From a virus, in the IMG/VR virus record IMGVR_UViG_3300030419_000880, positions 1 to 36,505 of that record: a stretch of 36,505 bases of DNA; one strand, written 5' to 3'. The notes beneath the pieces are model-generated. The model ran no database searches and was not told the DNA's origin. It worked only from the letters and a program-made list of their open reading frames with translations. Shown here in pieces: positions 1,967 to 34,423 of the stretch (positions are counted from its first letter, which is position 1; each line of letters starts with the position of its first letter). The translations under genes were made by a program, and so were the position numbers.

Positions 1967-1967
1967 T

Positions 1968-8399: not shown

Positions 8400-8419
8400 A
8401 TTACTAATCTATATAAGGT

Positions 8420-9535: not shown

Positions 9536-9554
9536 CTTGATATTATTTTTTAGT

Positions 9555-9562
9555 TATTTAGG
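9555..9562 (-). promoter_or_regulatory. Imperfect late promoter octamer CCTAAATA
   Basis: CCTAAATA on the minus strand matches NATAAATA except for C at the second base. It is 20 bp upstream of the ATG at 9535, the same spacing as the better octamers. Accepted with caution because of this spacing. Confidence 0.35.
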
Positions 9563-9570
9563 TTGACCAT

Positions 9571-11810: not shown

Positions 11811-11829
11811 TTTATATCACTATTTCCTT

Positions 11830-11837
11830 TATTTATG
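11830..11837 (-). promoter_or_regulatory. Late promoter octamer CATAAATA
   Basis: CATAAATA on the minus strand, 20 bp upstream of the ATG at 11810. It overlaps the end of the preceding gene (stop at 11833), giving the fibre pair 11268-11810 and 9571-11271 its own late start. Confidence 0.6.
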
Positions 11838-12207: not shown

Positions 12208-12220
12208 TGTTTATACCTCC

Positions 12221-13942: not shown

Positions 13943-13943
13943 T

Positions 13944-14480
13944 TTAGTTTACCCCTTGAAGGATTGATATAGATACATCTAAAGCATTTGCAGTATCACA
14001 AAGTATTCTTAATTCTTCTCCAGCAAGTAATGTAGTTTTTCCTGCATCACTTATAACAAATGAAGAACCTGAAGGAATTGGAACATCCCACATCAAATTA
14101 TAAGATGTACTTCCCGTAGCAATCTGAACTGATGCTCCTACTTGGTTTGTTGTATTATTAGTTAACGTTCCCCCAATTAAAATGGATTTAGTATTAGCAG
14201 GTGATGTATATGTAGTTGTAACTCCTAGTACTTTTACATGTTGATTAGTTACTGAAGATACGTTAAGAGAATATCGATCTAAAACTATAGTATCTGGAAC
14301 TACAATTGATGCTACCTTAGTTCCACCTATCCAATTCAAGGTGTCTAACATATCACCAACATTTACTCCAGTAGTTCCCACACCTGTAATTCTATCAGTA
14401 GAAGCACCAACAACTCCATTATCTGAAGATGTTACTATCCCCACCCCTCTTCCAAATGCGTTTGTAAACTTTTCTGCCAT
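13944..14480 (-). CDS. Virion-associated hypothetical protein (178 aa)
   Basis: I recognise a general resemblance to small structural proteins encoded beside fibres in T4-like cyanophages, without a known function. The protein starts MAEKFTNAFGRGVGIVTSSD and is beta-rich throughout, with small residues (G, T, V, S, N) dominating. A middle block (TTYTSPANTKSILIGGTLTN) and the end (FVISDAGKTTLLAGEELRIL) suggest a beta-sandwich of the kind used in capsid or fibre decoration or attachment. No signal peptide or membrane segment. A late octamer (14501-14508) stands 21 bp before the ATG, and the fibre gene at 12221-13942 begins 1 bp after its stop, so the two form a unit. Confidence 0.6.
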   Translation of the reverse strand: MAEKFTNAFGRGVGIVTSSDNGVVGASTDRITGVGTTGVNVGDMLDTLNWIGGTKVASIVVPDTIVLDRYSLNVSSVTNQHVKVLGVTTTYTSPANTKSILIGGTLTNNTTNQVGASVQIATGSTSYNLMWDVPIPSGSSFVISDAGKTTLLAGEELRILCDTANALDVSISILQGVN

Positions 14481-14500
14481 TTTCTTTTAATGCTTAATGT

Positions 14501-14508
14501 TATTTATT
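14501..14508 (-). promoter_or_regulatory. Late promoter octamer AATAAATA
   Basis: AATAAATA on the minus strand, 21 bp upstream of the ATG at 14480. It would start the unit 13944-14480, 12221-13942 and 11833-12207. Confidence 0.6.
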
Positions 14509-15721: not shown

Positions 15722-15740
15722 GTTTAGTATCCCCTATTGA

Positions 15741-15748
15741 TATTTATT
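15741..15748 (-). promoter_or_regulatory. Late promoter octamer AATAAATA
   Basis: AATAAATA on the minus strand, 20 bp upstream of the ATG at 15721, in the 31-bp gap between two fibre genes. Confidence 0.6.
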
Positions 15749-15752
15749 GTAA

Positions 15753-18098
15753 TCATAATGGCATATACCTCACTACAATCTTCGAATCCGATATCGGAGT
15801 ATCGACAAATGTAAGTGAACTCAGACCGACCACACTATAGTCATCATCTGGAGTTAGAACGGAACCATTGAGGACAACAAAAATGTCATCAACACTTCTT
15901 CCTTCATAAGACAGAACCTCAGTTGTCTGTCCTGTAGAAACAATTTTTTGTGTTTCATATCTAGTAGAACCACTCAAATAAATGGTTCCACCCATACCAG
16001 CAGTTGCACCTGACTGATAACATAACTTATGAGGAGCATTAAACGGAACATCAAAAACTAACGTTGAATCTTCAGTTCCATTACCAGAAACTCCAGGGGT
16101 GAATAGTCCAGTTGCTCCTGTTACTCCTTTACTGCTATGATTCTTAATCCATAATGCTTGAGCACCAATACCATTAAAGAAATGATATCTCTTTCCTTTC
16201 TGTAAAAATAAAGTTGGATTTCTATTTGCTGATGTATCAGTAAATCCTAATCCCGTAAAGCTATAATAAGTATTACTTCCATCCTTAGAAAGAGTCCATT
16301 TAGTTTCGACTGTCTCAGATACATCTCCAAAATAAGTTGTTGCTGACATAATACCAGCAGTTGCAACTCCAACTAATCTACTAGTTCCTGCAACATAGAA
16401 GGAAGTATCACCACCACCAACACTTGCTGATGCTGCATTAGTTCCTACATAAAGATTCTTACTTGTAGAAAGTGCCGAAGCATTCTGGTCAAATTCAACA
16501 CCAGGAACATCTGTTAATCCAGTACCATCACCCCAGAAGGATGCTGCTGTCATACTACCAGCAATAGAAATGACCGATGGGAGTCGAGCATTTAATACTG
16601 TTCCTGTCAAACTTGCAGCACTCACACTACCATCAAAAACTCCACAAGTAAGAGTATTGGTAGCAGGTGCATATTGGAAAGCATTATCATTTAAAGCAGT
16701 ATGAATACCAGTTCCACTCGTAAAGAGTGGGAACATAGGACCGCCAGTATTATCTGACATCACATGGATTTCTGCTGCTGTAGATGCAAGACCTACAACA
16801 TTACCAGTCATAATACCAGAAACGATATTACCTGTTAAATCTCCTATCAAACTTCCAGTCATAATACCAGAAACGATATTACCTGTTAAATCTCCACTAA
16901 ATCCACCAGCAGCAGTTGCAACTCCACTAATATAAAGTTCTCTACCCGAAACTTGATCATATGTTATATCATCTTTTACATATAAATCTCCACCTACCCA
17001 TAAATCTCCACCAGTAGTTACAATTCCAGCAGCACTTGCTAAAGTAGTAATACCAGTAATATTTAAATTACTCGAAGCAGTAATTGCTGCTACACTAATA
17101 TCAGGAGTTCCCGTAAGTCCAGTAGCATCTCCTGTTACATTTCCTACTAATGCTCCACTAAAGGTTTTTGCAGTTATAACTCCAGAAGAAGTAATAAGAT
17201 CTGCAGCAGGAGTAATAGTTAATGCAGCTCCAACTGAAGGTCCAGTAATAGTTACAATTCCTGATACCGCAAGACCACCATTTATTTTAACTTGATTATT
17301 TGCCTCTTCTCCAATTTGACCAACTTCAAAGGGATAAGCTGGAGTGATAGTTCCAATTGCAACTGATTTGGCATCAGTGTATATACCAGCATTTCCTACT
17401 AATTCTTTCCATAATCCTGCTCCTCCTCCACCACCTGTAACAGTAACAGTTACTCCTAATCCTATAGGTGAGAAGGTAGAAACAGATGCACCAACGAAAT
17501 CAATTGTCTTAACAGTTCCTGTTGGTCCTATCTGTATTCCATCATCCTTAACAGTAATACCAGCAGTTGCACCTGCACCTACACTTGCTGCTTGTCCAAG
17601 TGCAACTGCTTCTACTTTTGTTCCTACAATAGCAGGTTCTTTTAATATAAATGTGTTTCCATTCGTTGCAGTAAATTCTGTTGTTTCTAACAGTTTAACA
17701 CCATTAACAAATATATCTAATAATCCAACAGTATATCCACCACTAATTGTGAATGTTGTTTGTCCATCTGTTGCTGTATATACCTGACTACTTCTTGCTG
17801 AAGGTAAAGTATACCACTCTAAACCTGTTCCCGTAGACTTTAATATTTGTCCATTAGCACCAGTTGTTGCACCAACACTTAACCAACCATCAATATAATT
17901 ATTCTTTGAAGTCGAAATACTAACAACATTCGACTCATACCCTTCTATACTTGTACCACCAATACTACCAACAACATCTAAATTATATCTTGCCGTAATA
18001 ATACCAACGCCAACCTCTCTAGTGACATCATTGGCATATATTAAATTTTCCGCAACTTCTAAACCATTACGAACGACAAAATTCTTATTTACTGCCAT
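15753..18098 (-). CDS. Large tail fibre with degenerate cupredoxin-like domain (781 aa)
   Basis: Domains in order: an N-terminal anchor-like region (NKNFVVRNGLEVAENLIYAN, 4-23); the fibre beta domain (QTTFTISGGYTVGLLDIFVN then NGNTFIL, 113-167); a glycine-rich linker (222-227); ISG/ITG stalk repeats with DDITYDQVSGRELYISG (376-392); a 17-residue direct repeat (DLTGNIVSGIMTG); a WGDGTGLTDVPG motif (522-533); a cupredoxin-like domain (about 600-710, with NPTLFLQKGKRYHFFN and APHKLCYQSG then GMGGTIYLSG); and a last beta domain (DIFVVLNGSVLTPDDDYSV). The usual copper-site Cys and His positions are S and T here, while the Met of GMGG (702) remains, so copper binding is doubtful. An AGGGGAG ribosome site and a late octamer lie upstream. 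It probably forms a structural fibre. Confidence 0.8.
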   Translation of the reverse strand: MAVNKNFVVRNGLEVAENLIYANDVTREVGVGIITARYNLDVVGSIGGTSIEGYESNVVSISTSKNNYIDGWLSVGATTGANGQILKSTGTGLEWYTLPSARSSQVYTATDGQTTFTISGGYTVGLLDIFVNGVKLLETTEFTATNGNTFILKEPAIVGTKVEAVALGQAASVGAGATAGITVKDDGIQIGPTGTVKTIDFVGASVSTFSPIGLGVTVTVTGGGGGAGLWKELVGNAGIYTDAKSVAIGTITPAYPFEVGQIGEEANNQVKINGGLAVSGIVTITGPSVGAALTITPAADLITSSGVITAKTFSGALVGNVTGDATGLTGTPDISVAAITASSNLNITGITTLASAAGIVTTGGDLWVGGDLYVKDDITYDQVSGRELYISGVATAAGGFSGDLTGNIVSGIMTGSLIGDLTGNIVSGIMTGNVVGLASTAAEIHVMSDNTGGPMFPLFTSGTGIHTALNDNAFQYAPATNTLTCGVFDGSVSAASLTGTVLNARLPSVISIAGSMTAASFWGDGTGLTDVPGVEFDQNASALSTSKNLYVGTNAASASVGGGDTSFYVAGTSRLVGVATAGIMSATTYFGDVSETVETKWTLSKDGSNTYYSFTGLGFTDTSANRNPTLFLQKGKRYHFFNGIGAQALWIKNHSSKGVTGATGLFTPGVSGNGTEDSTLVFDVPFNAPHKLCYQSGATAGMGGTIYLSGSTRYETQKIVSTGQTTEVLSYEGRSVDDIFVVLNGSVLTPDDDYSVVGLSSLTFVDTPISDSKIVVRYMPL
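16804..16895. repeat. 41-bp direct repeat, two copies 51 bp apart
   Basis: Copies at 16804-16844 and 16855-16895 are identical over 41 bp; the period is 51 bp, exactly 17 codons. They encode the repeated peptide DLTGNIVSGIMTG in the 781-aa fibre. Nucleotide identity in an otherwise diverged repeat protein suggests a recent in-frame duplication and a possible length-variation hotspot. Confidence 0.85.
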
Positions 18099-18135
18099 TG
18101 AGGTTCACTCTCCCCTCTTAATATTTCCTATAATC

Positions 18136-18143
18136 TATTTATC
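18136..18143 (-). promoter_or_regulatory. Late promoter octamer GATAAATA
   Basis: GATAAATA on the minus strand, 38 bp upstream of the ATG at 18098, in the gap after the giant virion gene. Confidence 0.6.
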
Positions 18144-18154
18144 ACATTTAATAA

Positions 18155-21100
18155 TTAGAACAAGACCATAAAGTGGAAGGCATTCGTCTGTAGAATTGGT
18201 GAATATTGGGTGGTTGCATATTTCTGACTCTTATTAATCATATTCATAATCATTGGATCAAGACACACCCATTCAAAACGATTACTATAAGTAGCTGTTA
18301 AATTGAAATAACTGTCTTTATCCTGTTGTGAGGAGAAAAATACAGAATATTTAGTATGTGGAAGATCTCGTTTGAAATATACTGTTCCATATCCTTGAGC
18401 AGTTGTTGTACAATAATCTACATTAGGTGTAGCCCTTATCTTATTCATATTCTTAGGAAAATCTCCAGAAACGTTAGTGAAATAACCAAATTCCCTAACT
18501 CCATAAATTGGATAATCAGCATACTGTGTAGACTCTGGCATTGCTGTATAAAGATTACTCTGTCTGACACCATTAGGCATTCCCAATGTTCCAGTAGTAA
18601 TACCAGAAGCAGGAACATCAGTTAAATTAGAACCATCACCCTTAAACTGAGCAGCAGTTATAACACCAGTAATATTTGCTCCCTCAAATTGACCATGCTG
18701 ACCATAAACTCTCTTAAACGTTCCAATACCTGCAGTAGCAATACCACTTGCACCCAAAGTTAAATTGGATTGTCCAATAATACTTCCACGGAATGTTACA
18801 TCATTACTATCATAAGGATAAGAGAATACACATTCATTAGCACCTGCATTCTTACGATATGCAATAACTGCATCAGCAACTTCTCCAGTAGCAAATGATG
18901 GGTTAAAGTCACCCTCAAATACTAGACCACCACCCCTTTCAGAGTTTCTACCAAGATATAGATAACCCGTTCCAGAGTTTTCACCCATTGCTTCAAATCC
19001 AGCAATGTTAGCATCACCAGCAAGAACAGTAGTTGTTCTATTTGTTTCTCCCGAACTCTCACCAATAGATACATTACCATCAAATCCAGTAGTTCCAATA
19101 ACACCAAATGTAGAAATACCAGCAACAAATAATTGATTTAAGTTAGTACCACCCATTACGGTAATACCTGTTCCTACTGTTAGGAAAGGTCCAGTCGTAT
19201 ATCCTGTACCTGCTGCAGTTCCGTGGAAAGTAACAATACCTGAACTCCAAGTAGGTCCATAAGACGTACTTAGACCCATAAAGGTAGATAATCCAGAAAC
19301 ATAAAGATTGGCAGGGGTTTCTGGGTCTGCAGTAGCAAAGTTAATAGTTGAAATACCACTAGTACTATCAAATGTTCCTGTTACAGATACACCAGCACCT
19401 ACAAACTGAACTAGACTTGATATACCGATAGATCCATCTCCAGTGGCAATACCTACAGTATTCGCAGGAAGTGTCTCAACACCAGCAGGAAGAATACGTC
19501 CAAACTTCTTCCACTCATTACTAGTTGTATAAACCCAACCAACAAAGTCTCCATCAAAAGGAGCAGAATAGTATACTACATCTCCTAAATTTCCTGCTTG
19601 TGTTGGTTTGGATGTTGCAACAGTGAACTTACGTGAAACTGTAGCATTACCTTGTATCTTAAGGTTATCAACTTCAATACCTTGAGAAGAAGTAGATACA
19701 ACTGGTTTGTTGAATAAAACTGGACCATCAAATTGTGATAGTACATTACCATCTGCTCCACCTTCTACACTAAGTGATCTTCTTACATTAACCTGTAATG
19801 GGTCAATAATATCAAATCCACCTTCTCCACTTGATTCCTTAGAAAGTCCCCCAGTGACTGCAGGAATAGGTATACCAAATGTCTCAACCTGACCTGTAGT
19901 AGAGCTAGTTTTCTTATTTCCAAAGTAGAAATTACCACTATCATCCATTCCACTATAGTTGGAAAGACCACCATCTTTTCTAAATGATTGTGAATCTAAT
20001 ACTTGCTGTTCACTAAGTTTAATTGTTTGAACTTGTGGAAGTGAAGTAGAATAATTACCTGGACCAAACCCAACATATTCAAATGTATGTCCTGATGCAC
20101 GAATTAAAGAGTTCCTTCTTAATTCAACAGGATGTGGTTGAATTTTCTTAACTACAGAACCATTAAGGTGTGTTTGACGTAAGGTTCCCATTACTCCACG
20201 GAAAACCTTAATTGGATCGGATCCACCTGTTGGAGGTGTCTGCTTGATTCTTACAATCTCATTATCAATCTTCAGATAATCACCAAGGGTGAATCTATTA
20301 CTATCCTGATTAACAATTGTAATTTCATCAATTGCCAGAGTAGATACTGCAGTAGATAACGTGGTTGTAATACCTGCATATTCAGGAACATTTCTTGTCG
20401 ATGTCTTATCATTATCTATAGTAAGGTTTCCACCTTCTGGTCTAAAGGTAGGAAGATATATACTCAAATCTTCATTCTCATTGAAATCTGGATTTGTAGA
20501 TCCAATACCAACCTTAGCAGTTAAACTTGTAAGTGTAGGTGCAGAATTAGTTAAGAAATAACCATTGAATATCTGTATTTCCTTTTTATTAGCAATTCCA
20601 TTAGCATTCGTAGTTGCAACACCAACAGCACCACCCATATAGAACTTATTACCAGCAATTAAACCATGAGCACCAAGAGTAGTAATAGTAGCAATACCTG
20701 TTGGATAATCATAAGTTAGAGTAGCAACACCAACAACTTGACCAGTCTGAACTATAGTTGCTTCGGCACCGATAGTTGCACCAATACCAGTAGGTTGATT
20801 TGCTTTTGAAGTAGTAGCAGTTCCTGTAAGACCCATCTTAATAGGATCAACAGGTGCAACACTATTTGCTGGTTTAGCAATGAATTTCTTAGGTGCTCCA
20901 ACTTCAACATTTACAATCTCATATAGAGTATTAAATGTCTCGTATGGATAAGGTAAGTTATCAATATCTAAAGAATCACCAGCATTATCATAAATCTCTT
21001 CAACTTTTACAACTGCTTGTGTGAATCCTGTTGTTGTAGCAGTTCCTGCAACAAACATGGTATTACCAATACCATATGCAGAACCACCATCCATTACTTC

Positions 21101-24100
21101 AATTCCTGTTAGGGTTCCACTTCCATTAACAGTAATTCTTGCAGTAGCATTACTTCCACCAGTAGAATTAGCACCACCTACCAATGTAGCATTATAAAGA
21201 GTTCCTGCAGCACCATTACCATATCCAGCTCCAGATTCACTAACACTTAACTTAGTAATACGATTAAGTCCATGATCAATTGAAGTAAAGAAGGTTACTG
21301 CTGTTCCTATAGTCTGAGCAGCTCCCACCCATGAAACTGGAAGACCTTGAATCTCTGAACCAATGAAGTCAGTAATAGCAATACCAACAACAAAATCATC
21401 AATACCTTTCTTCAGTGATTCTCTAGTAATACTCTTCTCTGGATCATTAACATTAGTTTGTCCAACAAACTCACTAAGAGCAAAGGTCTTAGAAGCAGGG
21501 AAATCACTAACAGTTTGGTCTCTATTTACTCTAGGATATAAATTCTTAATTGGTTGAGCAAATCTATCGCTAGTGAAAGGTGCTACTGTAGGACTATTAG
21601 AACTATTAGTAACAGTTAATTGGTAAATACCATCTGATATATTTTCCTTATATTCCTGTAAGGTTTGAGACTGATAGACACTAAATGTTCCACCATAAGT
21701 ATTTCTTCTAAAGTATGGAAGATTAGTATCACGAATACTTGTATCATTACTAAAGGTTCCTGGATCTGTAGTTAGTCCAACACTAAATGTCTTACTATTT
21801 GGAATACTTACAACAGTAAATGCTCCATTAAATCCAGTATTTGCAACACCAGTAGTATTAACATTACTTCTAATATTAAATAACTCAACATCACTTCCTA
21901 CAATCAAATCATGAGGAAGTTCAGTAGTAACAATACCAACATTAGATGCCCAAGATGCACTAGAAACAAAACGGAAATTTCTTAATTCAGAAGAATTAGA
22001 AAGATTTGCAGTGGTTACACTATAATACTTTTCAATTTCTGCATTTGTATCAGCAGTAGAATCTCCTGATGGTTGAAGAACAGAACCTACAAGAGGAGGT
22101 CTTGCATTAACACTATCTTTAGGTATAACATATCTCAATCTATAAATTGTATCTGCAAGGTTTCTATTATCAGGATGTCTCTTTAAGAAAGTTCTTGCAG
22201 TTGAATCTCCAAGAGTTGTAGTACCCATTCCTACTATTGTAGAATGAATATTATTCTCTGTAGAAGCAGCAGAAACATTAATATACCAATTACTTTCACT
22301 ACTATCCCACTGAACAGGGTGTCCAATATCTCCAGACTTCTTATCAGAAACTCTACTCTCAACAGTTAAAACACCACCTTTATTATTAATAGTGATTGGA
22401 TTTAAAGAAACCGCATCATTAAGAGTTTTAGCAACTTTTAATTGTTTATTATTACTAATTCCTGTTACTGCCTCATCAATAGTTGTAATAGCATAGTAAA
22501 CAATATCATTCTCTAATCCATCAGGAATTTCACCCGTATCACTTAAAATTCTAATACTTTCACCATTCTCAAACTGATGACTAGTATCTAATGTAATAAG
22601 ATTACTTACAATACTATTAATACCTACAGCACTACGAACAACATTATATTGTTTCTTAGAACTTACTTCTGCACCAGTAGATGCAGTAGGTGGCATAACA
22701 ATCCTGGCATTAAATTCTGTTGTGATTCCAGCGTTGTCAGTTAAAAATACATTTAAAGTATCATTATTTGCTGCACCAACTCTATATCCTTGTAATAAGT
22801 ATTCAGGTAAGGTAGACTGAGTAGTTTGATTATAAAGATATAATTTAGATGTAGATGCAATACCTACTCCAGTAGCATCACTAGATTTCTTAACATCAAG
22901 AGCATCATACTCAAAAGTTTGAGTTGTTACTTCTAAATTTTTTGGAGGAATAACATGAGAAATATATCCTCTATCATCTTGAGAGAATGCTCTCCTTCTA
23001 TATCCATCTGCAGTTAATGCCTTTGCACCAAAGTTTGAGTTAGAGTTAGTAATACTTAAATCACCACCCTTAGAACTCAAGAAATGAGATGCATATCCAA
23101 TAGCAAAGCAAGAAACTACTTGAATGAATGCATCATTAGTAGCATGAATATGATAATGTGAATATTCAGGTTTATATTGAGATCTAGGATCTGTACTTAA
23201 ATTCTCATTTCCTGATGCTGTTGAATCTTTATAGGTTCCACTTGTAGTGTCATACTTAACGAATGCTTTATTATCTTTCTGCAATGAAATACCCGTATAC
23301 TGGGCACAAACCATTGACTTAAATCCACTTGCTTTATCTCCATCAGCATAGAGACCATTCATACCAAATACTGATCTTAGAGTACAGTTAAAGACATATG
23401 GAGAAGATGAAGTAACTGTATCTTGTGCAATATTTAAAGTTGCATTAGTAATTGTGGGAAGAGGATCTGAAGGAGAATTTTGAACTTGATACTTAATTTG
23501 AGTTGTAGATACAACATCACTAATCACATGATTACCGTCATATCCAGTAACATCTACACCAGCAATTCTAATAGCAGTGTCTGTATCGAGTCCAGGAAGG
23601 ACTTTATCTGTAGTAACAGTAATTTCAGTAGAAGAAACTGTACCATCACCTGCTCTTATACTACTAATTCCAACAGAAGCACCTGTTGATCCAACAATTC
23701 TATATTCATTAACGTTAGTCTGAATATCAATTGCTGCAGATGGATAATCAGGAGAAATATCTCTTCCACTTGCTTGACCATATGCTAGACCAATCTTTTC
23801 ATAATACATGTCCAGATCAGTTCTACTTGTCTTATAAGTCTGGAAGTCATCATCAATAGTTACACCATTAACACCATCAGCAAACTCAAATACAGTTAGT
23901 TTATGATGAGAGAAATTAGGAACAAATTGGTTTGTAGTGTAATCAACATATGCTTTTCCATTTGGATTAGCATCATTAATAGTAAGTTGCCAAAAATAAC
24001 ACCCACCAGTTACACGGAAGAGGGCAGATTTTTCAATCTCATTATTAGTTGGGTTAGGTACATATAAAGGTCTTATCTTTGTCTTTCTTAAATCATATCC

Positions 24101-24526
24101 AACAATAGATACACCACGAGGTATTATTGCTCCACCGAAAACACTATTAAGTTTATAAAGTTGATTATTTGGGTTTGTTAAGTCAAATGAAGTTGTACTA
24201 TCAAATGGTGGAAAATCATTTGATATAGTACCATCTCTTAACCGATAGTTATTAACACCAGACGGTATCCATCCTGGTCTATTATCTACTAAGTGCTCTC
24301 CTGGATACAGAAGAATTGTTGTTTTTTCAAATCTATCATTATCAAGTCCTTTCTGGTAGGAAAACCGTGATGCTTCTATTAATGCCCTTTGAATAGTAAT
24401 GAACGGTCTTGCAAGAGAATTACCCTGATTCTCGATTGCATCCGTCGCATCTACGTCGTTTGGACTTACATAAAGAATGTTCCCACGAGTGTTCTTCAGA
24501 AAGTTATCTAGACGGCTAAGACCCAT
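18155..24526 (-). CDS. Giant virion structural protein (2123 aa)
   Basis: The largest gene in the window. The start GNILYVSPNDVDATDAIEN followed by ARPFITIQRALIEASRF and TTILLYPGEHLVD resembles the first turns of right-handed beta-helix (pectin-lyase-like) proteins. A stretch around residues 380-500 with repeated short strands (AFIQVVSCFAIGYASHFLSS, ITNSNSNFGAKALTADG) supports this. The middle is a long series of beta-rich modules with many GIxT motifs. The C-terminal region carries a YYSAPFDGDFVGWVYTTSNE segment and the FKGDGSNLTDVPASGITTGT motif also seen in the 781-aa fibre, then a unique end. Large homologues of this type occur in T4-like cyanophages as virion structural proteins, probably of the baseplate periphery or long fibres. 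No enzymatic catalytic residues were recognised. Confidence 0.85.
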   Translation of the reverse strand: MGLSRLDNFLKNTRGNILYVSPNDVDATDAIENQGNSLARPFITIQRALIEASRFSYQKGLDNDRFEKTTILLYPGEHLVDNRPGWIPSGVNNYRLRDGTISNDFPPFDSTTSFDLTNPNNQLYKLNSVFGGAIIPRGVSIVGYDLRKTKIRPLYVPNPTNNEIEKSALFRVTGGCYFWQLTINDANPNGKAYVDYTTNQFVPNFSHHKLTVFEFADGVNGVTIDDDFQTYKTSRTDLDMYYEKIGLAYGQASGRDISPDYPSAAIDIQTNVNEYRIVGSTGASVGISSIRAGDGTVSSTEITVTTDKVLPGLDTDTAIRIAGVDVTGYDGNHVISDVVSTTQIKYQVQNSPSDPLPTITNATLNIAQDTVTSSSPYVFNCTLRSVFGMNGLYADGDKASGFKSMVCAQYTGISLQKDNKAFVKYDTTSGTYKDSTASGNENLSTDPRSQYKPEYSHYHIHATNDAFIQVVSCFAIGYASHFLSSKGGDLSITNSNSNFGAKALTADGYRRRAFSQDDRGYISHVIPPKNLEVTTQTFEYDALDVKKSSDATGVGIASTSKLYLYNQTTQSTLPEYLLQGYRVGAANNDTLNVFLTDNAGITTEFNARIVMPPTASTGAEVSSKKQYNVVRSAVGINSIVSNLITLDTSHQFENGESIRILSDTGEIPDGLENDIVYYAITTIDEAVTGISNNKQLKVAKTLNDAVSLNPITINNKGGVLTVESRVSDKKSGDIGHPVQWDSSESNWYINVSAASTENNIHSTIVGMGTTTLGDSTARTFLKRHPDNRNLADTIYRLRYVIPKDSVNARPPLVGSVLQPSGDSTADTNAEIEKYYSVTTANLSNSSELRNFRFVSSASWASNVGIVTTELPHDLIVGSDVELFNIRSNVNTTGVANTGFNGAFTVVSIPNSKTFSVGLTTDPGTFSNDTSIRDTNLPYFRRNTYGGTFSVYQSQTLQEYKENISDGIYQLTVTNSSNSPTVAPFTSDRFAQPIKNLYPRVNRDQTVSDFPASKTFALSEFVGQTNVNDPEKSITRESLKKGIDDFVVGIAITDFIGSEIQGLPVSWVGAAQTIGTAVTFFTSIDHGLNRITKLSVSESGAGYGNGAAGTLYNATLVGGANSTGGSNATARITVNGSGTLTGIEVMDGGSAYGIGNTMFVAGTATTTGFTQAVVKVEEIYDNAGDSLDIDNLPYPYETFNTLYEIVNVEVGAPKKFIAKPANSVAPVDPIKMGLTGTATTSKANQPTGIGATIGAEATIVQTGQVVGVATLTYDYPTGIATITTLGAHGLIAGNKFYMGGAVGVATTNANGIANKKEIQIFNGYFLTNSAPTLTSLTAKVGIGSTNPDFNENEDLSIYLPTFRPEGGNLTIDNDKTSTRNVPEYAGITTTLSTAVSTLAIDEITIVNQDSNRFTLGDYLKIDNEIVRIKQTPPTGGSDPIKVFRGVMGTLRQTHLNGSVVKKIQPHPVELRRNSLIRASGHTFEYVGFGPGNYSTSLPQVQTIKLSEQQVLDSQSFRKDGGLSNYSGMDDSGNFYFGNKKTSSTTGQVETFGIPIPAVTGGLSKESSGEGGFDIIDPLQVNVRRSLSVEGGADGNVLSQFDGPVLFNKPVVSTSSQGIEVDNLKIQGNATVSRKFTVATSKPTQAGNLGDVVYYSAPFDGDFVGWVYTTSNEWKKFGRILPAGVETLPANTVGIATGDGSIGISSLVQFVGAGVSVTGTFDSTSGISTINFATADPETPANLYVSGLSTFMGLSTSYGPTWSSGIVTFHGTAAGTGYTTGPFLTVGTGITVMGGTNLNQLFVAGISTFGVIGTTGFDGNVSIGESSGETNRTTTVLAGDANIAGFEAMGENSGTGYLYLGRNSERGGGLVFEGDFNPSFATGEVADAVIAYRKNAGANECVFSYPYDSNDVTFRGSIIGQSNLTLGASGIATAGIGTFKRVYGQHGQFEGANITGVITAAQFKGDGSNLTDVPASGITTGTLGMPNGVRQSNLYTAMPESTQYADYPIYGVREFGYFTNVSGDFPKNMNKIRATPNVDYCTTTAQGYGTVYFKRDLPHTKYSVFFSSQQDKDSYFNLTATYSNRFEWVCLDPMIMNMINKSQKYATTQYSPILQTNAFHFMVLF

Positions 24527-24556
24527 TTTATTACACTATGAAATTCTATTTAGTTT

Positions 24557-24564
24557 TATTTATC
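24557..24564 (-). promoter_or_regulatory. Late promoter octamer GATAAATA
   Basis: GATAAATA on the minus strand, 31 bp upstream of the ATG at 24526 and 4 bp after the stop of the 61-aa gene. It gives the giant gene its own late start. Confidence 0.6.
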
Positions 24565-25723: not shown

Positions 25724-26269
25724 TTAAACTAACCTATAATCTTCAATATAATAATACTTCACATAATTTCTAATTTCAGAAGTACTTGATATTTTCTTAT
25801 AATTAGGTTCCATATATTCCAAAATTAACTTCTGTCCTACTTCATTGTAAATATAATTTTTATCCAATTCTTTTACTACAAAATCCATATCTAATACCTG
25901 CCCCATCCAATCACCAAAGTTCTCACCAAACCCATCTTCAAAATTCCAAAGACAAGTTTCTTCGCTAATATAATCCACTTGTTTCTTATACCATCCTTTA
26001 GAATAGAATGGATGAGAACTTAAAGACAAATATCTTTCCAAAGGATCTCTTATCACTGCAATATGAGGAATATTTTTTACATCTAAATGTTTCTCATATA
26101 ATTCTCTAGTAAAATGAGTAATTTCTGTACGATCAATCTCTTTCCATATAGGTTGTTCTGGTTCAAATCCATTCAACTTTATATTCTCTTGAATGAATCT
26201 ACCAGCAGTTTTGGGAATATGAATGAAAAGAAATCTCTTTCCAGTTTCTTTATGACGATAAGTAGGCAT
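25724..26269 (-). CDS. Sulfotransferase-family protein (181 aa)
   Basis: Residues 13-30 (FLFIHIPKTAGRFIQENI) contain the 5'-phosphosulfate-binding loop HIPKTAG of the sulfotransferase family, which transfers sulfate from PAPS. Residues 69-83 (HIAVIRDPLERYLSL) match the 3'-phosphate-binding motif, with R74 and a serine at 82. The protein is shorter than typical carbohydrate sulfotransferases (250-350 aa), so it is a minimal version or recognises a small acceptor. No membrane anchor, so it would act in the host cytoplasm. Its ATG shares a base with the stop of the upstream 2OG oxygenase (TAATG), so the enzymes are co-translated. The acceptor is unknown: a virion protein, a host glycan or a metabolite are all possible. 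Confidence 0.75.
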   Translation of the reverse strand: MPTYRHKETGKRFLFIHIPKTAGRFIQENIKLNGFEPEQPIWKEIDRTEITHFTRELYEKHLDVKNIPHIAVIRDPLERYLSLSSHPFYSKGWYKKQVDYISEETCLWNFEDGFGENFGDWMGQVLDMDFVVKELDKNYIYNEVGQKLILEYMEPNYKKISSTSEIRNYVKYYYIEDYRLV

Positions 26270-26856
26270 TAGATTGATTTATTAAACCAAAAAGATAGAA
26301 CATATCTGGTACCAGACTCAACTTCACTCACATGATGAAGATATTCTCTATTAGAAAAAATTAATAACTTTCCTGCTTTCGGTTTTACATCATACCATAC
26401 TTTATCATCTAAAGTATCGAATTGAGTATGTCCTCCAACATAGTCATCATTTAAATAAAGAAAAGATGCAAGAACATTAGGACTAAACATTTCAGATTTA
26501 TCATAATGTGGTTTCATAAAAGTTCCTTTTGGCCATCTTATGACACCACAATAATCTAATTGTATATCCTTATGAAATGTTTTACAAAGTTGAGTTACCT
26601 TCTTAATTACGTTAGCAAAAAGTTCATTAGATGTCAATTTAATATCGATAGGAGATACATCTCCACCCAAATAGATTGCACCATAATCACCATCAGGTTC
26701 TGGTATATCAGGACCATAACTCAAACTTTCATCAGAATTTGAATGAGTAACTGCTTCTAAGAATGTATCCTCCTTTTGATCTCCATGAAGATTGATAAAT
26801 GGTTTACACAAAGAAGGATTTAAAAATTCCTCTTCAACATAAATTAATTTTTTCAT
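26269..26856 (-). CDS. 2OG-Fe(II) oxygenase, prolyl-hydroxylase-like (195 aa)
   Basis: Double-stranded beta-helix dioxygenase using 2-oxoglutarate, oxygen and ferrous iron. The metal triad is visible: H117 and D119 (FMKPHYDK) and H174 (YLHHVSEV), with R184 (SGTRYVLSFWF) to bind 2-oxoglutarate. Other family blocks are SFLYLNDDYVGGHTQF and KPKAGKLLIFSN. Such enzymes are frequent in T4-like cyanophages; proposed substrates include protein side chains. It overlaps the upstream paralogue by ATGA and the downstream sulfotransferase by TAATG. Compared with the paralogue it has an insertion of about 30 residues after residue 25. The substrate is not indicated by sequence. Confidence 0.88.
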   Translation of the reverse strand: MKKLIYVEEEFLNPSLCKPFINLHGDQKEDTFLEAVTHSNSDESLSYGPDIPEPDGDYGAIYLGGDVSPIDIKLTSNELFANVIKKVTQLCKTFHKDIQLDYCGVIRWPKGTFMKPHYDKSEMFSPNVLASFLYLNDDYVGGHTQFDTLDDKVWYDVKPKAGKLLIFSNREYLHHVSEVESGTRYVLSFWFNKSI

Positions 26857-27350
26857 TTTTGATTATACCAAATACTAAGAGCAAATCTTTCTCCACCTTC
26901 AACCTGAGTAACATGATGTTTATAGATTGAATTAGAAAATACAAGTAGTTTTCCTTTTTCTGGTTTTATTTCATGTTCTTCAAATCCAGTATAACCACCA
27001 GTAAAATCATCGTTCAAATAAAGAACTGCTGCAAATAAATCAGGTTCTTGTCCTGGTCTTGATGGATCAATATGGGGTTTCATAAAAGTACCCTCTGGCC
27101 ATCTAACAACAGAAGCATAATCAATAATAACCCTGTCATCAAAGGTTTTACAAAGATCTGTTACTTTATCAACTACATTATTCTCTTGTGAATCAAAATA
27201 AATCCCATCCAAGGTAGTAAGAAAAGTATTACCACCCCTACCTGGATTTCCATAAGGAATTTCTTCTTTATTATCTTTAGAAAGTTTAATTAAATCATCA
27301 CACTCTTGAGGAGAAATAAAATTCTCTTCAAAGTAAATCAATTTTTTCAT
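26853..27350 (-). CDS. 2OG-Fe(II) oxygenase, second copy (165 aa)
   Basis: A paralogue of the next gene: both begin MKKLIY, and share DxxxVxRWPxGTFMKPH, LYLNDDxxGG and KGKLLVFSN-type blocks. The triad is H93, D95 (KPHIDP) and H145 or H146 (YKHHVTQV), with R155 (GERFALSIWY) for 2-oxoglutarate. It is complete and near the lower size limit of the family. The stop overlaps the start of the next oxygenase by ATGA. Two diverged copies side by side suggest different substrates rather than dosage. The gene begins 6 bp after a fibre/baseplate gene, so it is expressed with structural genes. Confidence 0.88.
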   Translation of the reverse strand: MKKLIYFEENFISPQECDDLIKLSKDNKEEIPYGNPGRGGNTFLTTLDGIYFDSQENNVVDKVTDLCKTFDDRVIIDYASVVRWPEGTFMKPHIDPSRPGQEPDLFAAVLYLNDDFTGGYTGFEEHEIKPEKGKLLVFSNSIYKHHVTQVEGGERFALSIWYNQK

Positions 27351-27356: not shown

Positions 27357-28358
27357 TCATAATATTTGAGTATTTCTTGGACCTTCGTATCTTGGATCTT
27401 TAAAGTTTGGATTATCAACATCATCCACCTTACCTGGATTAAAGTTAGGATCTGGATAATCCTTCCAAGTATCTCCTTCATACTCAGTAATCAGAGGATT
27501 TATATCTTTTCTTTCTCCATACACAGAATAGAAACAATCAATAGGACCACCAGCACCATTCTTTATTATTATCTTTTGACCCCATTCAATCTTATCCACA
27601 AAAAGTTCTTGATAACTTTGATAAGGGGTTAAATGAACTGAAAGACTATCTGTATATACCAAATCTTTCCAATAATAAGGGAGTTCAATTACATTATTAC
27701 CATTACTCAATCTTCCTCTAAAATAAACACCAACCTCTGGTCCCTCAATACATGCATAACGAAGTCTATGTCCATCTCCTTTAGTAGGATGCTTAATATC
27801 AAAAGGTTTTGGTTTACCATCAGCAGCACTAAATCGAGCAGATAAATCACCAATACCACCACCATTGAAATATGCATTTCCACCAACCCATAAAGGATGT
27901 CCTCCTGTTGCCATAAAGGTAGGAGCATTAACAGTAAGAACTCCTGTATTAACACTACCCAAAGATTTTACCTTTAGACTAGTTAAAATTCCACCACCAC
28001 CCCTCTCTAATGTGATATTAGAAACATCAGACCCTGTTCCACGGAAAACTGTATAATTATCTTTCGTAGTTACTAATGCAACACCATTATGAGGAGTATT
28101 TAAACCAGATGATTCTGTAGGTATTAAATCAAACCAAGGTGCTAATTTTCCCTCACTATCTTCATTCTCCACATAGTTATCTTCATAAGTATAATCCATA
28201 TCTGCTTTACCTGTAAACGTTCCATAGTTTACAAAGGTTAAGGGATAACTGGCAGGTTTTGGTTCATATGGATAAACCTTTTCAGGTGAAGGCTTTGATG
28301 TATTAGATGTAGAATGACGAGTCTTTTCTCCCGTTATCTTGTTTATTTCCATTGTCAT
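27357..28358 (-). CDS. Virion protein with shared EGPE/RGRL C-terminal domain (333 aa)
   Basis: Two parts are visible. Residues 1-190 are low in complexity and fibre-like (proline-rich start, then TVNAPTFMATGGHPLWVGGN). Residues about 195-305 form a domain shared with the next upstream gene (28364-29062): RLRYACIEGPEVGVYFRGRL, VIELPYYWKDLV, SLSVHLTPYQSYQELFVDKI, and GPIDCFYSVYGERKDINPLI. I recall this domain from fibre proteins of marine phages, with unknown function; it sits at the end of fibres like self-processing or capping domains, but I see no catalytic Ser-Lys dyad. A GAGGAG ribosome site is embedded in the end of the upstream gene. Probably a short fibre or baseplate appendage. Confidence 0.75.
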   Translation of the reverse strand: MTMEINKITGEKTRHSTSNTSKPSPEKVYPYEPKPASYPLTFVNYGTFTGKADMDYTYEDNYVENEDSEGKLAPWFDLIPTESSGLNTPHNGVALVTTKDNYTVFRGTGSDVSNITLERGGGGILTSLKVKSLGSVNTGVLTVNAPTFMATGGHPLWVGGNAYFNGGGIGDLSARFSAADGKPKPFDIKHPTKGDGHRLRYACIEGPEVGVYFRGRLSNGNNVIELPYYWKDLVYTDSLSVHLTPYQSYQELFVDKIEWGQKIIIKNGAGGPIDCFYSVYGERKDINPLITEYEGDTWKDYPDPNFNPGKVDDVDNPNFKDPRYEGPRNTQIL

Positions 28359-28363
28359 GGTAA

Positions 28364-29062
28364 TTACTCCTCAATTTTAAGTCTTGGAACATCTTTCCTT
28401 TCGGCAAAGATATGATAATAACAATCAATTGGCATTCCACCTTTAGATTGTAGAAATACCTTATTTTGACCTACTCGTTTGATAATAATATCTTGGTGAG
28501 CACCAATGGGTTGAAGTTGAACTGTAATACTTAACTCTTCTACCAAATCTACCCAATACTCAGGAAGATATATTACAGAAGTTCCTGTTAGTCTACCTCG
28601 ACAAAAAACTCCATTCTCTGGACCTTCTAAACAAGCATGAACTAACTTTCTACCAGGTTTACTTGGATGAGGAATAACGAAGTTTTTAACCCTCGCCATT
28701 ATAGTCTCAGCATAAATGACTTTCGACTTTATGGTTCGAACTGTTAATAATTCGTCCACCTTCAAGTAGCTTCTTATTCTAGCATAAGTTCTCACAAAAA
28801 GCGAATAAAAAGGAACAGGATGTGTTTCTCCTTGCATATCACTATTCTGTGTTTCAGCTATCATCACTGTACCCAATTCATTTTCTTTTATGGGTGTTTT
28901 AACTTGATGATCATAATATTGAGTAGGATCTCCCGTAACTGAAGGTCCTTCGGTATAGGATGTTCCTCTAACCTCATCATCTCCCCTACCTAAGATTTCA
29001 GGAAGTCCATTTCCAACAAATAATCTTTTTCCGACTGTTACGTCGTCCATCTCCATTGACAT
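28364..29062 (-). CDS. Virion protein, paralogue with EGPE/RGRL domain (232 aa)
   Basis: The C-terminal 105 residues (from KLVHACLEGPENGVFCRGRL, through VIYLPEYWVDLVEELSITVQ to MPIDCYYHIFAERKDVPRL) match the same domain as the neighbouring 333-aa protein. The N-terminal 125 residues are different: an N-terminal segment MSMEMDDVTVGKRLFVGNG, and a segment DELLTVRTIKSKVIYAETIM that looks like stalk repeat strands. The ATG at 29062 has a GGAGG ribosome site in the 13-bp gap after the spike-like gene; the same gap holds TATAAATT, one base off a late octamer. The shared domain with a different front end suggests duplication followed by domain exchange. Likely a fibre or appendage protein near the baseplate. 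Confidence 0.75.
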   Translation of the reverse strand: MSMEMDDVTVGKRLFVGNGLPEILGRGDDEVRGTSYTEGPSVTGDPTQYYDHQVKTPIKENELGTVMIAETQNSDMQGETHPVPFYSLFVRTYARIRSYLKVDELLTVRTIKSKVIYAETIMARVKNFVIPHPSKPGRKLVHACLEGPENGVFCRGRLTGTSVIYLPEYWVDLVEELSITVQLQPIGAHQDIIIKRVGQNKVFLQSKGGMPIDCYYHIFAERKDVPRLKIEE

Positions 29063-29786: not shown

Positions 29787-32756
29787 TTAAGTTACCTTTC
29801 CTACGCAATCTATTACCTGAAGAACAGGAGTACCTTTTAATCTATCAAGATTTCCTTCTTCATCGGATCCAATTCTTAATGGTTCAAATACAGGAATAAG
29901 TTTTGCATTTGTTCCGACTTCAGATTCCATCCATAATCTTGGAACCCTATTAAATCCTTGCCCTTTGGATATTATATTCACTTTAGTTACTGTTCCAAAA
30001 GGTCCAAATTTAGGTTCCAATACAGCACCATTATTATATTTAATAAAGATAGTGTCATTTGGATCATAATTAATTCCAGGATTTTCAATGTAAACATCTA
30101 CAAGTTGAAGAATTACAGGATAATCACCTAAAGCACTAGCAGGATCATTACTTGAAATCTTAGGTGCAGTATCTAAAGGATTAGGAGTAGTAAAACTACC
30201 TCCAGCAATTACTTTTCCAGTTCCGCATAAAGTTTGAACTGTAATTCCATCTTTCACAATATCTACACAAGTTCCTGGTGGTAATTCAACAGTATCTCCT
30301 GGATTAACATTCACAACTGTTCCTGGAGAATAAGGGAAATAACCTCCCAGTTGAGTTATATCAAAGAAATTGCCAGCATTTACATCTACATCAGAATCTG
30401 TATCTCCAGTTCCTGAACCACTAATAATAAACACTTGACCAACTTCATATCCAGAACCTCCCTGACATATAGTTGCTTGAGTTATTATACCATTTTCTGA
30501 AATATAATCAACCTTAAAATCTATACCACTAGAATTTTCAACTTTAGTACCTACACAACTACCACTCTCAGGATAAGTAGAACCTCCTGTAGATAGATCA
30601 AATGCACTTACTCCTCCATTATCATCTATTGCAGTTATTATACCTTGAGCAGGTAATCCAGGCAAAGGTGGTGGAGGTACACTAGTTATAAATTCTTGGC
30701 CAACTGTACTAATACCAACCCCACCAGTACCATATGGAGTATCACTTATTGTTATTGTACCACCAGTATTAGTTCCACCAAGAGGATCATATTCAATAAT
30801 AGTAGTACCTGAAGGAAAATTAATATCTGAGGGTATGTTTATAGGAATAACTGATTGACCAGCATTTATAGATCCTTCGGGATTAATCACATTATCAATA
30901 ACATTACTACCTGTAGTTACATCTCCCACAAATCCACCAGTTCCCAAACCTGCTTGATGATTTTCATTATCTAAAGTATTTAAAATTCCTGTAGGTTGAT
31001 AATTTACTATCGTATTACCAGGATCTGAGAATATCTGTCCATTTCCTCCTTTAGAACCATCAAAAATATTAGTATATCCAACTCCAGGTGAAACAGAAAT
31101 AACTTTTACTACTTGTCCCCATTTATTAATTACTGATATTAAATTTGCACCACCACCTTTACCACATTCATCTACAATCTTTACCTTTGGTGGAGTTTTA
31201 TATCCCCAACCAGATCCACCACTGGAACTATCTTTTACATATGCACCACCATTCTTAGGTCCTGCTAAAGGATCCCATCTATTATATACTAAATCAACTC
31301 CTATTACTTGTCCATATCCATTTACGATAGCATTTCCTTCTGCTCCACCTGCTAAGGGATGAACTACTTCATCTTTTATAAAAATAACTTTAGGTGGTCC
31401 ACAACTAGTCGGTCCAGAATTACAAGCAGAGTCTTCACTTTCTATAGCATCTAATACACCACCCAAAGCACCATGAAACTCACCCAATACTCCTCCACCA
31501 TTCCATGCAGACCAAGATTCAGTAGGAGGACATTCTGGTTGTGGATCACATCCAAAGAACTCAACAATACTAGTTACAGTATCTAATGCACCTGTAGGAT
31601 CTCCACCTGCCATACCAAATAAAGAACCAGCATTACCCCACTGAGGAAGATGACTAACAGAATTATCAATAAAATCTTGTATGCCACCTGCTGCTGTTCC
31701 CAATATTCCTACAACAGGTCCAAGTATCTTACTTAAAAGGGAACTTACAAAACTTTTAGCAGCACAAGTAGGAGAACTCACAAATTTCTCCACTACATCA
31801 TTCAATAATTCTCTAACTACACCACACATCATATCAACAACCCCATTCATCACACAAGTAACAGTATTAGTAACTTCTTCCTGTTTTTGTTGTAATGCAG
31901 GTCTTTCATTTGGCATCAATAAAGAAACCGCAGGTGTTATACTATTATTAACTTTCTTCAATACCAGAGCATTAACTCTTGACATTATACTTTTTACAAA
32001 TCCACATATAGCCTTCTCTGCTCTATCAATTGCTCTCTCCATATTATTCTTTTCACCTGCTGCAGCATAAGGAAATAGAGATGCAGCCTTCTTCATCCTA
32101 TTAACATCCCGCAATAACAAAGACATAACACCTTGAATACCTTGCATCTCAGTGTTTGCTGCTTCGCAGGAATTCTGCATTGTCATTTCATCAGCACCAT
32201 CATTTGCCTGAAATATATCAGCAATTGATCCCACTCTAGGATTCATTCCCTCTAATGCAGGAAGAGACCTAGGTGCTGTTGCCATATTCTGTGGATATAC
32301 AGGAACAGGTTCACTCTTTCCTTTATATCCTGTCCTAGCTTCAAATCCTTTCTCTGGATCTTTTCCCTTTAAAATCGTTTGAGAATTATTTCCAAAGGCA
32401 CCCATAATTACGGGTTGTTGTGCCTCAAATCCATCCTTAAAAAATCCCATAACAAAAGCACCTTGACAGAGGTTAGGAGACATTTTAGATCCCCTATGAC
32501 CACTACCAGCAGTTACTGGATAGAGAACCTCTGCCATTGGCAACTCTTCATCAGGCTCATCTTCTTTACTAAAAGTTTGATTGCCAAATATTCTTACCCT
32601 ATAACGATAACCCCATCCAGGATCATCTTCCTCTGAAGATTGTATCGCAGAAGGATTGGAATTATCTCTCCATGTAGAATCATCAGCAATTTGACCTATC
32701 CACCAATAAAAACCATTGGTTCCAAGAGCCTGACTATCAAATAAACTATTATTCAT
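29787..32756 (-). CDS. 5: gp5-like baseplate hub protein with OB fold (989 aa)
   Basis: Residues about 48-123 match the OB-fold domain of T4 gp5-type hub proteins: WGYRYRVRIFGNQTFSKEDE, LPMAEVLYPVTAGSGHRGSK, QGAFVMGFFKDGFEAQQPVI and MGAFGN. Residues about 190-370 are helical and cysteine-containing (MKKAASLFPYAAAG, AIDRAEKAICGFVKSIMSRV). The rest, from about 430, is glycine-rich with repeated strands ending in phrases such as SPGVGYTNIF, QGGSGYEVGQVFI, NPGINYDPNDTIFI and KGQGFNRVPRLWM, a possible beta spike. T4 gp5 is 575 aa and carries a lysozyme domain; no lysozyme catalytic motif is visible here, so cell-wall degradation must come from elsewhere or is not needed. ATG overlaps the upstream stop by ATGA. 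Confidence 0.82.
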   Translation of the reverse strand: MNNSLFDSQALGTNGFYWWIGQIADDSTWRDNSNPSAIQSSEEDDPGWGYRYRVRIFGNQTFSKEDEPDEELPMAEVLYPVTAGSGHRGSKMSPNLCQGAFVMGFFKDGFEAQQPVIMGAFGNNSQTILKGKDPEKGFEARTGYKGKSEPVPVYPQNMATAPRSLPALEGMNPRVGSIADIFQANDGADEMTMQNSCEAANTEMQGIQGVMSLLLRDVNRMKKAASLFPYAAAGEKNNMERAIDRAEKAICGFVKSIMSRVNALVLKKVNNSITPAVSLLMPNERPALQQKQEEVTNTVTCVMNGVVDMMCGVVRELLNDVVEKFVSSPTCAAKSFVSSLLSKILGPVVGILGTAAGGIQDFIDNSVSHLPQWGNAGSLFGMAGGDPTGALDTVTSIVEFFGCDPQPECPPTESWSAWNGGGVLGEFHGALGGVLDAIESEDSACNSGPTSCGPPKVIFIKDEVVHPLAGGAEGNAIVNGYGQVIGVDLVYNRWDPLAGPKNGGAYVKDSSSGGSGWGYKTPPKVKIVDECGKGGGANLISVINKWGQVVKVISVSPGVGYTNIFDGSKGGNGQIFSDPGNTIVNYQPTGILNTLDNENHQAGLGTGGFVGDVTTGSNVIDNVINPEGSINAGQSVIPINIPSDINFPSGTTIIEYDPLGGTNTGGTITISDTPYGTGGVGISTVGQEFITSVPPPPLPGLPAQGIITAIDDNGGVSAFDLSTGGSTYPESGSCVGTKVENSSGIDFKVDYISENGIITQATICQGGSGYEVGQVFIISGSGTGDTDSDVDVNAGNFFDITQLGGYFPYSPGTVVNVNPGDTVELPPGTCVDIVKDGITVQTLCGTGKVIAGGSFTTPNPLDTAPKISSNDPASALGDYPVILQLVDVYIENPGINYDPNDTIFIKYNNGAVLEPKFGPFGTVTKVNIISKGQGFNRVPRLWMESEVGTNAKLIPVFEPLRIGSDEEGNLDRLKGTPVLQVIDCVGKVT

Positions 32757-33010
32757 TCGTCGTAAACTCTACACTCTTCTGCGTCAGGATGATTATCACA
32801 ATACACTTCTAAGTGTTTATCTTGATGTCTCAAATGCCAATCATTAATACCAGTCTCTGGTTCATCATCCTTATGATATTCCTCATAATAAGCATGAGCA
32901 GATTCTAAATCTGCCTTAGTATATTCCATTTTACCATGATTAATGTGTTCCTTACCATCTTTAGGATCGAGATACACTTCATGGTCTAAGTCGTGTTTAA
33001 TTTTAGTCAT
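32753..33010 (-). CDS. cp12: CP12-like protein (85 aa)
   Basis: The C-terminus LEVYCDNHPDAEECRVYDE reproduces the GAPDH-binding tail of CP12, the small disordered redox protein that joins GAPDH and phosphoribulokinase and switches off the Calvin cycle. C71 and C80 have the C-x8-C spacing of the regulatory disulfide, with the P, the acidic pair and CRVYD. The rest is very acidic and histidine-rich, with a helical segment TKADLESAHAYYEEYHKDDE; the usual N-terminal cysteine pair and AWD-VEEL core are not seen. T4-like cyanophages are known to carry cp12 as an auxiliary metabolic gene. Here it lies in the baseplate operon, with a late octamer 22 bp upstream and ATGA overlap with the gp5-like gene. 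Late timing would be unusual. Identity rests on the C-terminal motif. Confidence 0.65.
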   Translation of the reverse strand: MTKIKHDLDHEVYLDPKDGKEHINHGKMEYTKADLESAHAYYEEYHKDDEPETGINDWHLRHQDKHLEVYCDNHPDAEECRVYDE

Positions 33011-33031: not shown

Positions 33032-33039
33032 TATTTATT
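33032..33039 (-). promoter_or_regulatory. Late promoter octamer AATAAATA
   Basis: AATAAATA on the minus strand, 22 bp upstream of the CP12-like ATG and overlapping the stop codon of the preceding hub-like gene (33035-33037). It could start a transcript covering the CP12-like, gp5-like and spike genes. Confidence 0.5.
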
Positions 33040-34423
33040 TTCCTTTTCTTCCAAAAGAATCTCTTACTACAATAAATTTAGAATAAGATCCTTGTGGATT
33101 CAAGTGATGACAAAGTTCGGCTACCATATATATACCACTATTTTTCTTACTCCCCTCTTTAGTTCCAGTAGATGCAGCAGCTTCGGGTAATTCACAAAAT
33201 ATCTGATCTCCTACTTCAATATCAAAAACTCCACCAGTAGTCATCGACATTTGTATTGTCATCATTTGATGATAACGCATCACAGCTTGTGCTGTAATAT
33301 CGGGATATCTTATATTTTGAACTTTACATTTTTCTATTTGTTCATTCAAATCTTTTCCTGGTGGCATTGAACCAATATCAAGTGATTGCATATACCATCG
33401 TGAAGGATATTTGCAAAATTCTTGATTAACCAAAGTTGTAGAAGGTTCTTTTCCTGTATGCTGAACTTGTTTACTAAGATCTTTTGATGTTAATTTTCTT
33501 TCATTAGATTCATTAGTATAAGGATCAAAGAAAGTTGCTTCATTATTATATACACCGTTCATTAAATCATTTTGAAAATCTATAGTCTTTAAGAAAGAAA
33601 ACTTCAAAATTTTTGCATCATAATTCTCAGGTCTATTGGAAGTATCACTAGCAATAAATTTCTTCTTATAATCTGAATTAAATAAAGTTTCAATGGATTT
33701 AAAAATAAATCCAGAATGATTTTCAAAAAACAAATACCCTGCAGAAGGATTGTATTGACTTTTATTATCATAATTCTCTACTGTAGTCTGCTTGGTTTTA
33801 GTTTTTGTAGCAGCAGGAATAGCTCTCTTAGCAAGATTAACACACCAATAAAATGGTTTTCTTCCATTACCAATAAAAGCCCATTCATTCACAGTATCTT
33901 CAACATCAACCTTCTTCTTACTTCCTAATCCATTCTTACCTTGAGCAGTTGGTGTAGTACTAACTATTTTTTGAATAGTCTCAGAAATCTTACCAGTAAA
34001 TCTTTTCCTAATAGAAGTCTGCTCATTATCCAAATATTCTTTACTTACAAAACTAATCATTGCAGCAAGATCCGTAGTAGATTCCTTAAAAGGTGTTATT
34101 GTATTCACATACATTGTTAACCTTCTGGTTCTATCACAAGAATCTTCAAAAGCTATTTCTGCCTTCTCTCCTCCTGCTAGATTAAGTTCTTCAATAAAAT
34201 TTTGCGACTTTCCCTTTCCCAATCCAGTCTTTTTATCTACCTCTTTATATCCAGCATCAGATACTGAAATCTGAAGTCTTACACTAGTATCAAAAATACT
34301 TTCCTGATAATAAAGGTCAACAATAGCTCCCGTTATATCACGTTTTTTCTTATTTTTATTGGAGGTAATAAGAAACTTAGTTATATTACCTTGGTCGGTT
34401 CTACTTGGGACTACTTCCGACAT
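33035..34423 (-). CDS. Baseplate hub protein, gp27-like (462 aa)
   Basis: Placed between a tape-measure-like protein and a gp5-like hub, the position of the gp27-type hub/adaptor that joins the tube to gp5. The N-terminal half is built as hub barrels: DITGAIVDLYYQESIFDTSV, RLQISVSDAG, then AEIAFEDSCDRTRRLTMYVN. A helical segment (AAMISFVSKEYLDNEQ, RFTGKISETIQKIVSTTPTA) follows. The aromatic-rich middle (FENHSGFIFKSIETLF) and the end (VGDQIFCELPEAAA, KFIVVRDSFGRKG) fit hub proteins that are much diverged in cyanophages. The start shares a base with the upstream stop (TAATG). Assignment rests on layout and general fold rather than strong motifs. Confidence 0.6.
   Translation of the reverse strand: MSEVVPSRTDQGNITKFLITSNKNKKKRDITGAIVDLYYQESIFDTSVRLQISVSDAGYKEVDKKTGLGKGKSQNFIEELNLAGGEKAEIAFEDSCDRTRRLTMYVNTITPFKESTTDLAAMISFVSKEYLDNEQTSIRKRFTGKISETIQKIVSTTPTAQGKNGLGSKKKVDVEDTVNEWAFIGNGRKPFYWCVNLAKRAIPAATKTKTKQTTVENYDNKSQYNPSAGYLFFENHSGFIFKSIETLFNSDYKKKFIASDTSNRPENYDAKILKFSFLKTIDFQNDLMNGVYNNEATFFDPYTNESNERKLTSKDLSKQVQHTGKEPSTTLVNQEFCKYPSRWYMQSLDIGSMPPGKDLNEQIEKCKVQNIRYPDITAQAVMRYHQMMTIQMSMTTGGVFDIEVGDQIFCELPEAAASTGTKEGSKKNSGIYMVAELCHHLNPQGSYSKFIVVRDSFGRKGK

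Follow-up and report, generated by a model that had tools for sequence, protein, structure and literature searches.

A probable auxiliary metabolic gene, cp12 of the T4-GC 63 type, between two tail genes of a cyanophage genome fragment

The stretch of DNA analyzed here (the window) comprises the 36,505 nt of IMG/VR virus record IMGVR_UViG_3300030419_000880; it is a genome fragment, and a second cp12 elsewhere in the same genome is possible. An 85-aa open reading frame with an ATG start (minus strand, 33010-32753; translation MTKIKHDLDHEVYLDPKDGKEHINHGKMEYTKADLESAHAYYEEYHKDDEPETGINDWHLRHQDKHLEVYCDNHPDAEECRVYDE) lies between a tail-protein gene and a gp5-like gene, a junction referred to below as the slot. 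The features of this region are:

32753..33010, minus strand: cp12 gene, 85 aa, T4-GC 63 / PHROG 2603 type
32756..32830, minus strand: residues 61-85, the CP12 tail at the C-terminus; the cysteines of its CxxxPxxxxC are Cys71 and Cys80
32831..33010, minus strand: N-terminal region, residues 1-60, His/Asp/Glu-rich, conserved in the family, unalignable to host-type CP12
32753..32756, minus strand: ATGA overlap of the cp12 stop and the gp5-like start
33032..33039, minus strand: AATAAATA, 29 nt ahead of the cp12 ATG, matching the late promoter of cyanophages, NATAAATA
33035..34423, minus strand: upstream neighbor, a tail protein in the T4-GC 15 position, PHROG 350
29787..32756, minus strand: downstream neighbor, a gp5-like baseplate hub/spike protein, PHROG 1922

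The reading frame, its ATGA overlap with the gp5-like gene, and the late-type octamer (at 33039-33032) had all been noted in a preliminary description of the window, and all three are found at these positions.

The same description pointed to a CP12-like C-terminal tail with C-x8-C spacing, and proposed a search with the CP12 profile. This search bears it out: Pfam CP12 (PF02672) matches with an E-value of 2.2e-7 and a score of 31.9 bits (cut-off 22.7) over residues 61-84 only, covering columns 47-70 of the 70 in the model. The PDB CP12 chains likewise match the tail, and the best PDB match of all is a CP12 peptide (3zdf, E 5.7e-4, residues 67-85). Since the Pfam score is above its cut-off and the best PDB match is to CP12 itself, the likeness is not a chance one. 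The tail (LEVYCDNHPDAEECRVYDE) has the CxxxPxxxxC spacing of the C-terminal GAPDH-binding hairpin of plant and algal CP12 (PF02672; solved with GAPDH). The C-terminal Cys pair and the YD terminus are both present, and Cys71, Pro75, Cys80, Tyr83, and Asp84 are invariant across 33 relatives. A weak Pfam match to DUF4913 (E 0.003) is under the cut-off and was set aside.

As a whole, the protein matches PHROG 2603 (E 2.7e-21), while its match to PHROG 627, the host-type family (T4-GC 337), is weaker and covers residues 40-85 (E 6.5e-4). Among annotated phage records, full-length relatives are found in P-SSM2 and P-SSM5 (68%) and in marine single-cell virus contigs (63-72%), and are followed in rank by tail-only matches to many Synechococcus phages; apart from one weak faecal match (E 0.06), all matches in this collection are cyanophage or marine. 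The P-SSM2 homolog, PSSM2_066 (68% identity across 88 aa), is annotated as T4-GC 63. Both T4-GC 337 and T4-GC 63 are listed as “CP12 = carbon metabolic regulator” by Sullivan et al. (2010; PMC3037559), and a 267-base member of the listed CP12 cluster has the length of PSSM2_066. Taken with the Pfam match and the homology to PSSM2_066, this listing indicates by sequence that the 85-aa gene is a member of an already recorded cyanophage CP12 cluster. In PHROG 2603 and most deposits, the family is labeled hypothetical or of unknown function. PSSM2_066 differs from the window gene in its surroundings, lying at 53.6 kb amid small hypothetical genes and away from the tail-protein/gp5 junction, and in having no ATAAATA in the 60 nt upstream. 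T4-GC 63 cp12 genes also occur in metagenome-assembled genomes assigned to Actinomycetota, Gammaproteobacteria, and Flavobacteriales (L118, L119, and L120), contigs that are most likely misbinned cyanophage.

Two canonical features of plant and algal CP12, the AWD_VEEL core and the N-terminal Cys pair, are absent from the 85-aa protein, and the remainder is rich in H, D, and E, as the preliminary description had it; several of the His residues are near-invariant in the family. Its judgment that the protein is unlike standard CP12 holds for the comparison with plant CP12, but not for that with the marine picocyanobacterial and phage proteins. The host CP12 of marine Synechococcus and Prochlorococcus (72 aa) has the same C-terminal tail and is also without AWD_VEEL and the first Cys pair, as are the T4-GC 337 phage CP12s, which can be aligned to it from end to end. 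The lack of both features is therefore not special, and such variation across cyanobacterial and cyanophage CP12 has already been described (PMC3906501).

The T4-GC 337 CP12s of S-SSM7, ACG-2014e, and S-SCSM1 share both slot and tail with the window protein, but their N-termini are of the marine host type, and the 70 nt upstream of their genes lack ATAAATA. When the T4-GC 63 family is compared profile to profile with the host/T4-GC 337 set, the last 24 columns alone align (probability 98.3%, E 1.6e-14), and whole-protein homology to T4-GC 337 / PHROG 627 CP12 was not found. NCBIfam has no match for the whole protein or for its N-terminal 64 residues. By these two approaches the N-terminal 60 residues are without a known relative, and the CP12 matches cover only 24 of the 85 residues. 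That the T4-GC 63 N-terminus appears unrelated to that of host-like phage CP12 with the same slot and tail is among the less expected details, together with the allele exchange described below and the late-type octamer. An AlphaFold2 prediction for the 85-aa protein is of low confidence (pLDDT 51), a value that fits a disordered protein but supports nothing.

The N-terminal region is nevertheless conserved within the family, with 17 invariant positions across 33 relatives in residues 1-60. Between the window and contig L008, cp12 shows 30 synonymous changes against 2 that are non-synonymous, which indicates strong purifying selection on the whole protein, beyond the tail; recent transfer as the cause of the 99% identity to L008 is ruled out, as synonymous sites are near saturation. 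A third form of CP12, 52 aa long and with the same tail and slot, is found in another contig:

L117:5843-5998: 52-aa open reading frame, CP12 tail only (PF02672, E 1e-9), with a gp5-like gene immediately downstream

One CP12 tail is carried by three different N-termini within the same slot, and in some relatives (L002 and L003) most of the N-terminus is gone and the tail is kept. The tail is the working part common to the CP12 forms, which fits its predicted binding to GAPDH.

The conserved N-terminus raises the possibility, which we consider doubtful, that the GAPDH-binding tail is joined to a His-rich domain with a non-classical role, for example in metal-dependent redox control, or in bringing a partner other than PRK to GAPDH. 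This would be a refinement of a metabolic role for cp12, and not exclusive with it. Besides the selection on residues 1-60 and their non-homology to host CP12, it finds some precedent in reports of CP12-like tails on other proteins (GAPDH-B, ADK3, and argininosuccinate lyase) and of Cu/Ni binding by algal CP12 (PMC9406205). The loci that have lost most of the N-terminus and retained the tail argue against it.

The cp12 allele has been exchanged between phage backbones as a single gene. Contig L065 and the window are 96% identical in DNA across 8.3 kb, but their CP12 proteins are merely 58% identical; identity falls at ATGACTA and returns at the stop codon, and dS is about 2.4 for cp12 vs. 0.08 for the two flanking genes. 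A third contig of the window backbone, L066/L075, carries the L065 allele within the same junctions. In contig L009, CP12 is 98% identical to that of the window, and the flanks are 31% and 47% identical. Over 33 slot loci, many of them found through CP12, which biases the values, a Mantel comparison gives 0.83 between tail-protein and gp5 distances, and 0.37 and 0.31 between these and CP12.

An assembly artefact, in place of a natural swap, is a very unlikely source of the allele difference between L065 and the window. Each is a single metagenome assembly, but a chimeric contig would have to be joined twice, a few bases at most from the start codon and from the stop codon, and return to the same backbone on the far side; L066/L075 has the L065 allele independently; and CP12 is decoupled from its flanks throughout the 33 loci. 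A natural swap within a near-identical backbone means that cyanophage accessory genes can be exchanged at the scale of a single gene.

A position within a structural operon had been described as unexpected for a metabolic gene, but this location is a common and already known one. S-SSM7, ACG-2014e, and S-SCSM1 are all annotated with CP12 between the tail protein and gp5, the genes lying 4 to 20 nt apart. In Syn9 the order is tail protein - gp17 (CP12 by profile) - cpeT - tRNA - gp5, and that of S-SSM5 is similar, with extra genes. Sullivan et al. (2010; PMC3037559) noted that cp12 is near gp5 in some genomes. In 33 of 57 IMG/VR loci the relative adjoins the tail protein and/or gp5, several of the others being cut by contig ends.

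The slot may also be empty. The two tail genes overlap by 4 bases in P-SSM2 and RB11-B and are 14 nt apart in P-TIM68; in all three phages both slot neighbors are intact and the sole CP12 is located outside the slot. Contig L076 similarly has an empty slot and a CP12 elsewhere, and an empty slot was accordingly dropped as a sign of a non-cyanophage genome. Each of ten isolate genomes searched has exactly one CP12, in the slot or elsewhere, and every slot contig tested has one. A baseplate component should be present wherever both of its neighbors are, and in P-SSM2, RB11-B, and P-TIM68 CP12 is absent from between them. CP12 is thus separable from the baseplate genes, which argues against a structural role.

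The preliminary description had offered two alternatives, a phage CP12 in a late structural operon or a tail component that has borrowed the CP12-like tail; the first is supported as far as the gene's position goes, and the empty slots of these three phages, each with its single CP12 elsewhere, speak against the second. That the protein is a baseplate or tail component with an acquired CP12-like C-terminus (a hub chaperone, for example, or a tail-tip part made with gp5) is highly improbable: its place between two tail genes, the ATGA coupling to gp5, the late-type octamer, and an N-terminus unrelated to host CP12 would suit such a part, but relatives have the same two neighbors with CP12 elsewhere, three unrelated N-termini occupy the same slot, and CP12 follows the flanking tail genes too weakly in the Mantel comparison for a protein that must fit gp5.

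The cyanophage late consensus is NATAAATA (PMC2984593). Of 36 slot loci, with the window counted, 18 have ATAAATA 28-32 nt upstream of cp12, a motif seen in about 1% of 60-nt stretches taken at random; of the non-slot loci, 3 of 21 have it upstream of the gene. All 8 occurrences of the consensus in the window are on the coding strand, 7 of them at 27-45 nt before gene starts; the total of 8 is no higher than chance, about 12 being expected. Six tail-fibre-like or structural genes in 8399-24564 have it 27-45 nt ahead of them. The 180 nt upstream of the window cp12 start contain no sigma-70-like site. The octamer is not proof of late expression: in P-HM2, whose CP12, studied by transcriptomics, is of the host-like type, cp12 is a member of the middle cluster (PMC5082946) even though ATAAATA lies 31 nt upstream of it. 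Late expression of the window cp12 is therefore a prediction, if a plausible one.

Cyanophage CP12 is central to a model in which carbon fixation is shut off and the pentose phosphate pathway is run during infection. The window gene is very probably an auxiliary metabolic gene of this kind, a cyanophage cp12 of the T4-GC 63 type encoding a GAPDH-binding protein that is no part of the virion. Its family membership (by the tail), its slot, the empty slots of relatives, the allele swap, and the motif are seen directly; GAPDH binding, metabolic effect, and timing are predicted from sequence. Host GAPDH is the most likely binding partner of the C-terminal CxxxPxxxxC hairpin, which may also help to hold PRK. 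Such binding would damp the Calvin cycle and direct NADPH and pentoses to phage nucleotide synthesis. The tail-protein/gp5 junction appears to be a landing site for small accessory genes in cyanophage genomes, and this, and not a role as a virion part, would account for the presence of cp12 there. In the window lineage cp12 comes first after a late-type promoter, and for this reason it would probably be made, at least partly, together with gp5.

In kind the gene is ordinary, as both this cyanophage CP12 and its slot were known before; what deserves retaining is its unrelated N-terminus, the exchange of this one allele by itself, and the promoter of late type. A broader proposal, unlikely in its entirety, is that the junction is a single-gene exchange site for whole cp12 alleles, even those with unrelated N-termini, and that T4-GC 63 is a distinct late CP12 that would hold the Calvin cycle off during virion assembly by means of a new His-rich domain and the GAPDH-binding tail. 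T4-GC 63 CP12 is a common find among marine contigs, often with a late-type promoter when the gene lies in the tail-gp5 slot, and the form thus lends itself to asking whether shut-off of the Calvin cycle is required in mid-infection alone or during assembly too.

Several other genes of the window may be mentioned. Two adjoining 2OG-Fe(II) oxygenase genes (26269-27350; Pfam PF13640, E 2e-14 and 1e-13) lie amid structural genes, and next after this pair is a sulfotransferase-like gene (25724-26269; PF03567). A ResIII/DEAD-type helicase is encoded beside two DNA methyltransferase-like genes (699-4155; PF01555, E 1e-55, and a weak Eco57I match). Two adjacent proteins (27357-29062) have a C-terminal module in common (HACLEGPENGVFCRGRL / YACIEGPEVGVYFRGRL), which is without a Pfam match and is probably a repeated tail-fibre domain.
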